Positions 29,005 to 62,634 of a stretch of DNA of 64,000 bases are shown here, piece by piece. The first letter of the stretch is position 1; each line of letters starts with the position of its first letter. Made by a program: the position numbers and the translations under genes. The notes beneath the pieces are model-generated. The model saw only the letters and a program-made list of their open reading frames with translations. It did no database searches and was not told the origin of the DNA. The DNA comes from Rhodoferax bucti (GTDB taxonomy: Bacteria; Pseudomonadota; Gammaproteobacteria; Burkholderiales; Burkholderiaceae_C). Location: NCBI RefSeq assembly GCF_005876985.1, contig NZ_VAHD01000002.1, positions 744,001 through 808,000 on the forward strand, given 5' to 3'.

Positions 29005-29098
29005 GGTGCTCTCACAATGAGGATTAACAAGAATCAGGGCGCACGCAAACGCAGAACCGGCGCGCGCAAACGCGCGAGCCGGCACCTAGTGTGCGCGA

Positions 29099-29244
29099 TC
29101 TCTTTCATCCGGACTGTGACCGTCGGCTCTGGCATCTCACCAGATCTGCTGACCCCCACCTGCAAAGGCCGGTGGGGGCGCTCGCGGGCTGCTGAGGTCA
29201 AGCCACAGATACCGCCGGTGGGGAATTCCGCCCCGCCCTGAGAA
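29099..29244 (-). promoter_or_regulatory. FMN riboswitch (RFN element)
   Basis: Read on the minus strand the 5' end is TTCTCAGGGCGGGGC, then the conserved GAATTCCCCACCGGCGGTAT, and the 3' end is GACGGTCACAGTCCGGATGA followed by AAGAGA. This is the RFN consensus with its conserved helices, placed 95 nt upstream of ribH. FMN binding would lower ribH expression. Confidence 0.96.
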
Positions 29245-29304
29245 CGCGGCAGCCCTCGCGGACTGCGGGCGGGATTGTAGCCACCTTGCGAAAACCATGA
29301 GCCC

Positions 29305-58936: not shown

Positions 58937-58955
58937 GCCAACCGCTGTGGAGTCC

Positions 58956-58990
58956 AGGCCGGGTTGCTCACAAGGCGCCCGGCCTTTTTT
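58956..58990 (+). terminator. Intrinsic terminator after aceA
   Basis: AGGCCGGG (58956-58963) pairs with CCCGGCCT (58978-58985), then TTTTT. The loop is longer (14 nt) but the U-run is good. Confidence 0.85.
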
Positions 58991-59008
58991 CATTCCAAGA
59001 GACTGCGG

Positions 59009-59036
59009 TTAAAATAATGAATCAACTTTGTATAAG
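59009..59036 (+). promoter_or_regulatory. Candidate promoter of the thrS operon
   Basis: TTAAAA (59009-59014) and TATAAG (59031-59036), 16-bp spacer, matching sigma-70 hexamers at 4/6 and 5/6. Transcription would start near 59043, just before the leader peptide. A second A/T-rich -10-like block exists at 59010, so the exact start is uncertain. Confidence 0.4.
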
Positions 59037-59057
59037 AGCGAGAAAGGCAGTTTGGTT

Positions 59058-59099
59058 ATGACACCGCGAACTACACCGGCGACATTCATCAGCGAATAG
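59058..59099 (+). CDS. Candidate thrS leader peptide (Thr-rich)
   Basis: 13 residues, MTPRTTPATFISE. Four codons are Thr: ACA, ACT, ACA and ACA at codons 2, 5, 6 and 9; three are ACA, whereas ACC appears to dominate in neighbouring genes. GAGAAAGG lies upstream with 10-nt spacing. The TAG stop falls in the left end of a dispersed repeat copy (AATAGGCCGCTAG). Downstream lie an antiterminator arm and an intrinsic terminator before thrS, as in ribosome-mediated attenuation of amino-acid genes. Leader function is inferred. Confidence 0.6.
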   Translation: MTPRTTPATFISE

Positions 59100-59150
59100 G
59101 CCGCTAGTCCGCGCGCCTTTTGCGCAGCCAGCTACCAAAATCATAGTAAA
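59093..59150 (+). repeat. Dispersed repeat copy K in the thrS leader
   Basis: AATAGGCCGCTAGTCCGCGC, then TTGCGCAGCCAGCTACCAAA and ATCATAGTAAA. It contains the leader stop codon and the candidate antiterminator arm. Confidence 0.7.
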
Positions 59151-59173
59151 GCGCGGACCCTTCCGCGCTTTTT
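59107..59173 (+). promoter_or_regulatory. Candidate transcription attenuator upstream of thrS
   Basis: Terminator: AAAGCGCGG (59148-59156) pairs with CCGCGCTTT (59163-59171) and is followed by TTGCTTTT. Antiterminator: GTCCGCGC (59107-59114) is a perfect complement of GCGCGGAC (59151-59158), which overlaps the 5' arm of the terminator, so the two structures exclude each other. A stalled ribosome on the Thr codons (59061-59084) could favour the antiterminator; a clear 1:2 pairing arm was not found. Confidence 0.55.
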
Positions 59174-59207
59174 GCTTTTCCAGACACTCTTTTTTCCTGC
59201 AATCACC

Positions 59208-61118
59208 ATGATCAACATCACACTCCCTGACGGTTCCAAACGTGAATTTCCCGGCCCGGTTACGGTGGCCGAAGTGGCGGCTTCTATTGGTGCCGGCTTG
59301 GCCAAGGCGGCACTGGCAGGCAAGGTAGATGGCAAGGTGGTGGATACCAGCTTCCAGATGGCGGTAGACAGTGCGCTGTCCATCATCACCGCCAAGGATG
59401 CCGATGGTCTTGAGGTGATCCGTCATTCCACGGCCCACTTGCTGGCGTATGCGGTGAAAGAGTTGTTTCCGGATGCGCAGGTCACCATTGGTCCTGTGAT
59501 TGAGCACGGCTTCTTTTACGACTTCTCGTACAAGCGCCCCTTCACTCCGGAAGATCTGGCGGCAATCGAAAAGAAAATGACGGAGCTAGCGAACAAAGAC
59601 GAGCCGGTAGTGCGCCGAGTCTTGCCGCGTGATGAAGCGGTGGCGTATTTCAAGAGCTTGGGTGAGCAGTACAAGGCGGAAATTATTGCCAGCATTCCGT
59701 CCAATGAAGACGTGTCGCTGTACCGCGAAGGCAAGTTTGAAGATCTGTGCCGTGGCCCGCACGTGCCCAGCACCGGCAAGCTCAAGCATTTCAAACTCAT
59801 GAAGGTGGCGGGTGCCTACTGGCGTGGAGACCACCGGAATGAAATGCTGCAGCGTATTTACGGCACTGCTTGGGCTACCAAGGACGAATTGCAGCAGCAC
59901 CTGACCATGCTGGAAGAGGCGGAGAAACGTGACCATCGCAAGCTGGGTCGCGAACTCGATCTGTTCCACATTGACGAGCATTCCCCCGGTACTGTCTTCT
60001 GGCACCCCAAGGGCTGGACACTTTGGCAAGGGGTGGAGCAGTACATGCGCAAGGTGTACCAGGACAACGGTTACCTTGAGGTCAAGGGCCCCCAAATTAT
60101 TGACAAGAGCCTGTGGGAGAAAACCGGCCACTGGGACAAGTACCGTGAAAACATGTTCATTACCGAGTCGGAAAAGCGCGACTACGCACTCAAGCCGATG
60201 AACTGCCCCGGCCACATCCTGATCTACAAACACGGCATCAAGAGCTACCGGGATTTGCCGTTGCGCTTCGGCGAGTTTGGAGCGTGCCACCGCAATGAGC
60301 CCTCGGGCGGTCTGCACGGCATCATGCGCGTGCGTGCGTTTACCCAAGACGATGGCCACATCTTCTGTACGGAAGATCAGATTCAGTCCGAAGTGGTGGC
60401 CTTCACCACGTTGCTGCAAAAGGTCTACAAAGATTTCGGCTTCACCAACATTATTTACAAGCTGTCTACCCGGCCAGAAAAGCGCATCGGCACTGAAGAA
60501 AGCTGGGACCGTGCAGAAAATGCGTTGGCTGAGGGCTTGCGGGCTTCGGGCTGCGATTTCGAATACTTGCCGGGCGAGGGCGCTTTCTACGGCCCCAAGA
60601 TCGAGTACACACTCAAGGACGCCTTGGGTCGTCCTTGGCAGTGCGGCACTATCCAGGTGGATCCCAACTTGCCCGAGCGCCTGGATGCAGAGTTCGTGGG
60701 TGAAGATGGTGCGCGCCACCGCCCGATCATGTTGCACCGGGCCATCGTCGGTAGCTTGGAGCGCTTCATCGGCATCTTGATCGAAGAAAGCGCTGGCGCC
60801 TTGCCTGCATGGCTCGCTCCAGTGCAAGTGGCGGTGCTCAACATCACTGATGCGCAAGCGGAATACGCCCGAAGCGTCGCTAAAACGCTGCAAAATCAAG
60901 GGCTTAGGGTGAATTTAGACCTGCGCAATGAAAAAATAACCTATAAAATACGTGAGCATTCGATGCAGAAGCTGCCGTATCTAGTTGTTATTGGTGACAA
61001 AGAGATGGCAGCAGGCGCTGTCGCAGTGCGTGCCCGGGGTGGTCAAGACCTCGGTGCAATGCCCCTGGAGTCGTTCATTGAGCGCATCACCACGGACATT
61101 GCCAACAAGTCTTCCTGA
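59208..61118 (+). CDS. thrS: Threonine-tRNA ligase
   Basis: 636 residues. It charges tRNA-Thr. The N-terminal TGS domain starts [16 protein letters not shown]. The editing domain has [35 protein letters not shown] (HxxxH motif) and GPHVPSTG. The class II core has the motif 2 [31 protein letters not shown] and motif 3 region [18 protein letters not shown]. The C-terminal anticodon domain follows. The ATG at 59208 is at the conserved start; longer in-frame starts run into the attenuator. It heads thrS-infC-rpmI-rplT-pheS-pheT. Confidence 0.97.
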
Positions 61119-61206: not shown

Positions 61207-61794
61207 ATCGCTACTGAATTTCGTGACCGCCGCCAGCGCGAAGAACGTAAACACCGTTTGAACCGTGAAATCATGGCCCCTGAGGTGCGCCTCTCTGGTC
61301 CTGAGAACGAGCCTTTGGGTGTCGTCAGCCTTATGGAAGCTCTCCGCATGGCGGGTGAGCTGGATGTTGACTTGGTTGAAATCGCCGCTACTGCCAACCC
61401 GCCCGTGTGCAGGTTGATGGACTACGGCAAGTTCAAGTACCAAGAGCAAAAAAAGGCGGCGGAAGCGAAAGCCAAGCAGACGGTCATTGAGATCAAAGAA
61501 ATCAAGTTCCGTCCGGGTACGGATGACGGCGACTACAACATCAAGATGCGCAATATTCGCCGCTTCTTGGCGGAGGGCGACAAGTGCAAGATCACTTTGC
61601 GTTTTCGTGGTCGTGAAATCACCCACCAGGAAATTGGTTTGGCCATGCTCCAGCGCATGCGAGACGAGTTGGGTGACTCCATCATCGTGGAGCAGTTCCC
61701 CAAGCTGGAAGGCCGTCAGATGATCATGATGATCGCGCCGGGCCGTAAAAAGCCAGGTGGCTCTCCAAAGCCTGCAGCGGAAGCTGCAGCCTAA
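61207..61794 (+). CDS. infC: Translation initiation factor IF-3 with AUC start
   Basis: 195 residues. The conserved IF-3 N-terminus ([28 protein letters not shown]) is read in frame from an ATC codon at 61207, preceded by AAGGA at 7 nt and bounded by an in-frame TGA at 61201-61203. There is no ATG until after the conserved start. infC commonly uses a rare AUU/AUC start, the basis of its autogenous control. IF-3 signatures [16 protein letters not shown] and [11 protein letters not shown] are present. Confidence 0.93.
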
Positions 61795-62561: not shown

Positions 62562-62617
62562 TGCTATTGATTCAGTAGCACTCCGCGCACCAGAAACAAG
62601 GGCTAGCGCTTGAAAAA
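62562..62617 (-). repeat. Dispersed repeat copy L between rplT and pheS
   Basis: GTGCTATTGATTCAGTAGCA, then CTCCGCGCACC, then CAAGGGCTAGCGCTTGAAAA; reverse orientation, merging into the terminator. Confidence 0.6.
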
Positions 62618-62634
62618 GCACTAGCCCTTTTTCA
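62599..62634 (+). terminator. Terminator between rplT and pheS, partly made by repeat sequence
   Basis: AAGGGCTAGCGCTT pairs with AAGCACTAGCCCTT (one mismatch) around a GAAA loop, followed by TTTC. The left arm is the CTAGCGC end of a dispersed repeat copy, so the repeat may have created the terminator. Confidence 0.75.

Follow-up and report, generated by a model that had tools for sequence, protein, structure and literature searches.

Genomic Context of thrS

The window, that is, the whole 64,000-nucleotide stretch of DNA that was analysed, carries aceA, a gap at 58937-59207, thrS, infC and, further on, pheS, in this order. The thrS gene (59208-61118, + strand) encodes a threonine--tRNA ligase, matching NCBIfam TIGR00418 thrS with 744.9 bits (cut-off 383.65), and the NCBIfam matches for isocitrate lyase, infC and pheS all lie above their cut-offs as well. 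Among the best 80 of 588 relatives, the closest thrS from a named organism belongs to Rhodoferax sp. TH121 (97% identity), a member of the Comamonadaceae, Burkholderiales, Betaproteobacteria. The apparent start codon of infC is ATC at 61207-61209, which shares its frame with the listed ORF 61258-61794; IF3 genes typically have a non-AUG start. A strong U-tailed hairpin at 62599-62632, 30 nt 5' of pheS and with no evident Phe-rich ORF by eye, may be an attenuator or mark where the preceding transcript ends. Elsewhere in the window, an FMN riboswitch lies at 29093-29249 on the minus strand (104.5 bits).

An Rfam scan of the thrS upstream region produced no family match, leader families included. 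Of the eight matches that Rfam gave in 58937-59300 up to E 10, none is a T-box riboswitch, and a T-box was dropped as a candidate. With gathering scores as the threshold, tRNAs were all that the leaders of nine relatives yielded. In four of these nine loci (L103, L147, L162 and L186) a tRNA gene lies shortly upstream of the thrS leader, so a tRNA promoter may drive transcription of some thrS leaders.

A Threonine-Rich Leader ORF and Its Predicted Promoter

The gap upstream of thrS contains, on the + strand, a set of features arranged as in an attenuator. Scanning located a -10-like hexamer, TAAAAT, at 59010-59015, 48 nt before the leader ATG, along with a weak -35-like TTTTCA at 58987-58992. 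Between -80 and -22 relative to the leader ATG, 53 of 99 leaders (L002, at a contig end, L026 and L181 being left out) have such a -10-like hexamer, compared with 10.45 in base shuffles, and 39 of these 53 hexamers start 48-51 nt 5' of the ATG. Since this position recurs among leaders, transcription probably starts near the predicted site at 59022. An alignment of 53 leaders, omitting L002 for the same reason, revealed a conserved 5' block, AAGAGCGAGAAAGGCA (59034-59049), within which lies the Shine-Dalgarno sequence of the leader ORF, AGAAAGG (59041-59047).

This leader ORF, MTPRTTPATFISE*, extends over 13 codons and a stop at 59058-59099 (ATG ACA CCG CGA ACT ACA CCG GCG ACA TTC ATC AGC GAA TAG), with its ATG at 59058 and its TAG at 59097-59099. 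Four of the 13 codons specify threonine, namely ACA at 59061, ACT at 59070, ACA at 59073 and ACA at 59082, just as the preliminary description had it: four Thr codons, three of them ACA, in a segment that favours ACC. In 36 ORFs of the window selected by length, ACC accounts for 415 of 702 Thr codons, while ACA (58/702, 8%) and ACT (66/702, 9%) are the two rarest; CGA represents 72 of the 1087 Arg codons in the same set.

The threonine codons of related leaders are tied to one reading frame. Among 98 distinct MTPRT-type leaders (two duplicates, L026, which has ATA instead of ATG, and L181, which is not upstream of thrS, were left out), ACN occupies 109 of 569 in-frame positions at codons 7-12 (19.2%), compared with 9/471 and 10/471 off frame; 1000 base shuffles gave a mean of 38.3 and a maximum of 59. 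Codons 2-6 were excluded because codons 2-5 served to find the leaders and codon 6 lies inside segment 1, described below. The leader ORF has a median length of 13 codons (IQR 12-14) in these 98 leaders. Such frame-specific enrichment, combined with a narrow range of ORF lengths, is hard to explain unless the ORF is translated and senses threonine.

Predicted Terminator and Alternative Stems

Downstream of the leader ORF, a predicted intrinsic terminator (segments 3:4) occupies 59148-59173, comprising a 10-bp stem at 59148-59171 followed by a U-tract (-15.3 kcal/mol), and ends about 35 nt before the thrS ATG at 59208. The terminator announced in the preliminary description is thus in place, and so is the perfect 8-bp antiterminator that overlaps it, in which 59107-59114 pairs with segment 3, GCGCGGAC (59151-59158), which contributes to the terminator's 5' arm and loop. 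That description had found no clear 1:2 protector stem; such a stem exists. Segment 1, CGCGAACTAC (59065-59074), which covers Thr codon 5 and extends two bases into Thr codon 6, forms 8 of 10 pairs with segment 2, CTAGTCCGCG (59104-59113), which starts 4 nt past the stop codon and can have either segment 1 or segment 3 as its partner. The resulting hairpin (59065-59113) has an energy of -16.6 kcal/mol and contains an internal A.C mismatch. The mismatched C of segment 2 is the very base required for a perfect 2:3 helix; relatives with U at that site close the 1:2 stem there and have a wobble in 2:3.

Folding calculations agree with a structured leader, as 59022-59182 folds better than 200 of 200 dinucleotide shuffles (z -2.88), and the duplex energies of the window, compared with 100 spacer shuffles, gave p 0.05 for 1:2 and p 0.00 for 2:3. 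With the RNA before 59086 masked and the terminator 3' arm not yet made, 2:3 is in the minimum-energy fold (-19.6). At full length with segment 1 masked, the terminator reaches -32.0 kcal/mol versus -22.7 kcal/mol when 2:3 is forced; the terminator being favoured at equilibrium, antitermination must therefore be kinetic, that is, co-transcriptional.

Conservation in Close Relatives and Across the Order

Of the 588 relatives in the locus search, the top 80 were retained, and the thrS start is present in 78 of them, giving 79 regions together with the window. Across the whole analysis, L058 and L066 were left out for lack of a thrS start, L084 because it repeats the window, and L190 as a 51-base duplicate. 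Within five substitutions, GGTTATGACACCGCGAACTAC occurs in 54 of these 79 thrS upstream regions, and the frame closes after 10-22 codons in all 54 motif-bearing leaders. Thr codons, stop position and stems are kept in many relatives, so that the comparison by which the preliminary description could have been refuted did not go against it, though 25 of the 79 close regions have no leader motif. By eye, about 15 of these 25 retain a hairpin resembling a terminator shortly after a -10-like box, leaving little room for a leader ORF in the last 100 nt before thrS (L003, L005, L007, L008, L011, L012, L030 and L036, several of them Limnohabitans-like, are among these). Such regions look as if an attenuator had been deprived of its sensor while retaining the terminator. 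Some leaders, such as L107 (MTPRTCFFLR) and L108 (MTPRTFLLKR), have Thr only at codons 2 and 5.

To cover the order, a sequence-only model of the 5' block (E<=0.01, strict filters) was run on 300 genomes sampled evenly, the organism's own included. Judging from named loci and general taxonomy, this order would be Burkholderiales, spanning most of the former Betaproteobacteria. The model has one match in the organism's own genome and matches 40 of the 300 sampled genomes, a lower bound because of the strict filters. Thirty-seven of the 40 matches are upstream of thrS (the 30 best, directly upstream, and 7 of the other ten), and the remaining three, all weak, are in G265, G107 and G003. A further 80 stretches, one of them a duplicate, were mostly thrS upstream regions picked irrespective of the model; nine of them lie around model matches or come from their genomes.

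The third positions of codons 2-4 hardly vary among MTPRT-type leaders, although the leaders were found via this very stretch. The invariant stretch GTTATGACACCGCGAAC could accordingly be an RNA aptamer or a receptor akin to a T-box, acting on the terminator with no need of translation, the more so as ACCGCG resembles a T-box sequence. Three Ralstonia leaders, however, start two codons further upstream with the frame kept (MIQAPRTTTASERQ or MIRAPRTTTASERQ), other families keep Thr codons and stems without GTTATGACACCGCGAAC, and the Rfam matches up to E 10 include no T-box, all of which make a translation-independent receptor very improbable.

Stem Tests in MTPRT-Type Leaders

By script, 95 of 102 MTPRT-type leaders have a U-tailed terminator hairpin behind the ORF; among the other seven, a terminator is visible by eye in five and is weak in L013, and L181 does not precede thrS. 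When the spacers of the 95 leaders with a scripted terminator were shuffled 100 times each, p<=0.05 was reached by 1:2 in 18, by 2:3 in 40 and by the summed energies in 39, the last giving p>0.3 in 10. The two uses of segment 2 overlap by at least six bases in 83 of the 95, compared with 59.0 in shuffles. In addition, a swap test of 95 leaders (L026, L181 and the anchorless L013, L087, L088, L094 and L095 omitted) showed that 2:3 loses strength when terminator arms are exchanged between leaders: the own mean was -15.58 vs -14.87, with 5 of 2000 permutations as good. For 1:2, the effect was weak (-11.93 vs -11.58, equalled by 87 of 2000 permutations), and the near-constancy of segment 1 accounts for part of this.

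A register test addressed the 1:2 stem in 33 Comamonadaceae-type leaders picked for a CGCG-type segment 2. AACTAC is paired at 142 of 198 positions in one register only, and slid registers pair 12 to 90 of 198. In 22 of 30 leaders (the same 33 minus L014, L025 and L026), the stop codon lies 4-6 nt before segment 2, a spacing at which, given the size of a ribosome, a terminating one would cover the start of segment 2. RNAalifold, applied to a MAFFT alignment of 49 leaders, recovered the terminator alone because the middle of the leader is too variable to align; since this alignment was picked by the terminator pattern, its invariant terminator columns are uninformative.

Another pairing within the leader involves the Shine-Dalgarno sequence, whose AAAGGC (59043-59048) can pair with GCCUUU behind segment 2 (59115-59120). 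The pairing has p=0.01 in the window and p<=0.05 in 15 of 94 leaders (L026, L181, L013, L087, L088, L094, L095 and one with too little sequence omitted), which suggests a weak trend of Shine-Dalgarno pairing with CCUUU behind segment 2. From this pairing it might be argued that the ORF acts through sequestration of its own Shine-Dalgarno sequence, through coupling or through Rho, and not through the terminator. The U-tailed hairpin that competes for segment 2, scripted in 95 of the 102 MTPRT-type leaders and present also in 24 divergent loci, renders this scarcely probable.

Divergent Leaders and the CGA-AC Pair

Regions without an MTPRT-type core were searched for other leaders. Among 86 of them, which include L177, L181 and L182, not thrS upstream regions, 30 contain a short ORF with in-frame CGA-ACN (20 shuffles: mean 5.8, maximum 8) and 32 contain a short ORF with at least three Thr in seven codons (shuffles: mean 4.9, maximum 11), some of the Thr-rich ORFs lying within the end of aceA. 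Some of these short Thr-rich or CGA-ACN ORFs are due to chance, as shuffles also yield them. The divergent leader peptides include MNTNTTRTTTTRHT, MSFRTTTTGTLNLG, MFKRTTTTRISR, MPRTRTTTGFFSRRG and MFRTRTTTQSC.

Stems were evaluated in 26 divergent stretches from 24 loci with 200 shuffles each. The 1:2 stem reached p<=0.05 in 11 and lay above it in 15 of 26; the 2:3 stem did so in 7 (six loci) and lay above it in 19 of 26, about 1.3 being expected at p<=0.05. For instance, both L147 and L192 gave p=0.00 of 200 shuffles for 1:2. The stem of L147 pairs CGCAC..CTACCC with GGGTAG..GTGCG, and that of L167 pairs CGAACT.CCACC with GGTGGAGTTCG; in L128, L129, L152 and L176, the stems are no better than shuffles. 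Taken by their ORFs and stems, the divergent families appear to keep the attenuator layout with other sequences.

In MTPRT-type leaders of many families, ACA CCG CGA AC is invariant at silent positions, and this freezing exceeds what a run of Thr codons needs. Pairing of 1:2 alone cannot explain it, because some families that pair otherwise still keep CGA-AC. Furthermore, ORFs picked for at least four Thr in seven codons alone have an in-frame CGA-AC in 13 of 13 cases, which come from five family codes and are thus not independent. The sensor could conceivably be a fixed pair, Arg CGA plus Thr ACU/ACG, often after a Thr ACA at codon 2, instead of a Thr run. CGA is read by inosine wobble, which weakens decoding of the next codon, so that CGA in the P site would make the ribosome unusually sensitive to Thr-tRNA shortage at a single Thr codon. 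Such a two-codon sensor, if true, would explain the silent-site freezing of ACA-CCG-CGA-AC in many families, the persistence of leaders with just two Thr codons and the CGA-AC found in all 13 Thr-dense leaders. Against it stand 13 leaders with CTG, CCG or CCC instead of CGA (MTPLTT, MRPPTT, MVPPTT) and four with CGG (L050, L060, L067 and L098), and it is regarded as a speculative idea with a low chance of being correct.

Probable Control of thrS Outside the Order

Direct binding of the leader RNA by ThrRS, in an autoregulation like that of E. coli with the short ORF being incidental, would be a different way to control thrS. In E. coli, ThrRS binds a tRNA-like fold of the thrS mRNA, which constitutes a translational operator, according to PMC7373986 and PMC9976931, and the conservation of the 5' block at the RNA level would also fit a binding site. 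Anticodon-arm-like hairpins upstream of thrS were scanned for on both sides of the order boundary. In other orders of the class, 111 genomes matched thrS; 40 of them were taken, mostly the best matches, and 24 of the 40 have before thrS a hairpin whose NGU loop resembles the Thr anticodon, compared with 0.25 in shuffles. The hairpin is located 49-99 nt from where the stretch ends (L194-L233); in L198, the script picked another hairpin, and the usual NGU-loop one is visible by eye. By analogy, these hairpins are of the type of the E. coli thrS operator as presented in those two sources, and their presence in 24 of 40 genomes makes this type of operator seem widespread.

Within the order, the same scan retrieved a hairpin in only 2 of 100 leaders (L026 and L181 omitted), where both look incidental on inspection, and in 4 of the 87 regions that have no MTPRT-type leader; in the window, no anticodon-arm-like hairpin was found before thrS, and a mimic of the E. 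coli operator type was dropped as a candidate there. Conversely, no short ORF with in-frame CGA-ACN occurs in the 40 genomes of other orders, and two of them contain a short ORF in which three of seven codons specify Thr. As the hairpin is common outside the order and rare within, related lineages seem to control thrS differently. This distribution, together with the confinement of Thr enrichment to one reading frame, leaves a direct ThrRS site in the leader little likelihood.

Proposed Mechanism

The ORF, its Thr codons, the mutually exclusive stems, their spacing and their conservation are read directly from the sequence, and they support the layout of ribosome-mediated attenuation put forward in the preliminary description. 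From these elements we infer an active promoter, translation of the leader, ribosome stalling, termination and a response to threonine. The element is thus most probably a transcription attenuator of the ribosome-mediated kind, which adjusts thrS expression to the supply of Thr-tRNA, with a probability of roughly 85%.

In this attenuator, RNA polymerase would start near 59022, and a ribosome would follow on the 13-codon leader ORF. When Thr-tRNA is ample, the ribosome would proceed to the stop codon at 59097-59099, with its front edge reaching into segment 2; with segment 2 covered, segment 3 would be free for segment 4, and transcription would end at about 59173. When Thr-tRNA is scarce, the ribosome would wait at Thr codons 5-6 (59070-59075), occupying segment 1, so that 2:3 could form while the 3' arm of the terminator has yet to be transcribed, allowing read-through into thrS. 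If no ribosome translates the leader, 1:2 would form, and the terminator would form too.

Relation to Known Systems and Implications

Several known systems share parts of this layout. The pheST attenuator of E. coli relies on a leader peptide, PheM, rich in cognate codons, on alternative stems and on a terminator; it likewise places an aminoacyl-tRNA synthetase gene under a cognate-codon leader, for another amino acid and gene. The leader thrL of the E. coli thr operon also uses Thr codons as a sensor with a terminator ahead of the gene, but it controls threonine biosynthesis through a longer Thr/Ile leader, and no Rfam leader matches here. The T-box of Firmicutes thrS responds by antitermination as well; there, uncharged tRNA-Thr binds the RNA directly and no leader peptide is involved, whereas the T-box match is absent here. 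The translational operator of E. coli controls the same gene, but its tRNA-like hairpin was not found in the window.

No Thr leader before thrS in Betaproteobacteria was found in print; Lopatovskaya et al. 2010, reportedly a comparative work on attenuation of aminoacyl-tRNA operons, may predict the element. The main text of PMC2965389 does not mention thrS, and nothing on this gene was found in the available portions of PMC3110155, PMC4176332, PMC4833913 and PMC10272879. The preliminary description considered a Thr attenuator on thrS unusual, which holds in comparison with E. coli, but a Thr leader peptide has been reported for thrS of Streptomyces lividans (PMC8079986). According to that source, thrL precedes thrS in strain TK24 and was interpreted as an attenuator from RNA-seq, and, as here, it is a short ORF with Thr codons ahead of the gene. 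Unlike the leader described here, it reads MKRVRPFLETTPGFVPAR, has two Thr codons and is leaderless, and its single hairpin lacks a U-tract, termination being called unclear there. The two leaders have no apparent sequence relation and belong to different phyla.

If the attenuator is real, a large bacterial group would control thrS in a manner unlike that of the E. coli operator or of the T-box of Firmicutes, and one gene would be governed by a translational operator in some lineages and by a transcription attenuator in related ones. Furthermore, the many natural variants of this one attenuator, some with just two Thr codons, would offer material on how few sensor codons suffice.
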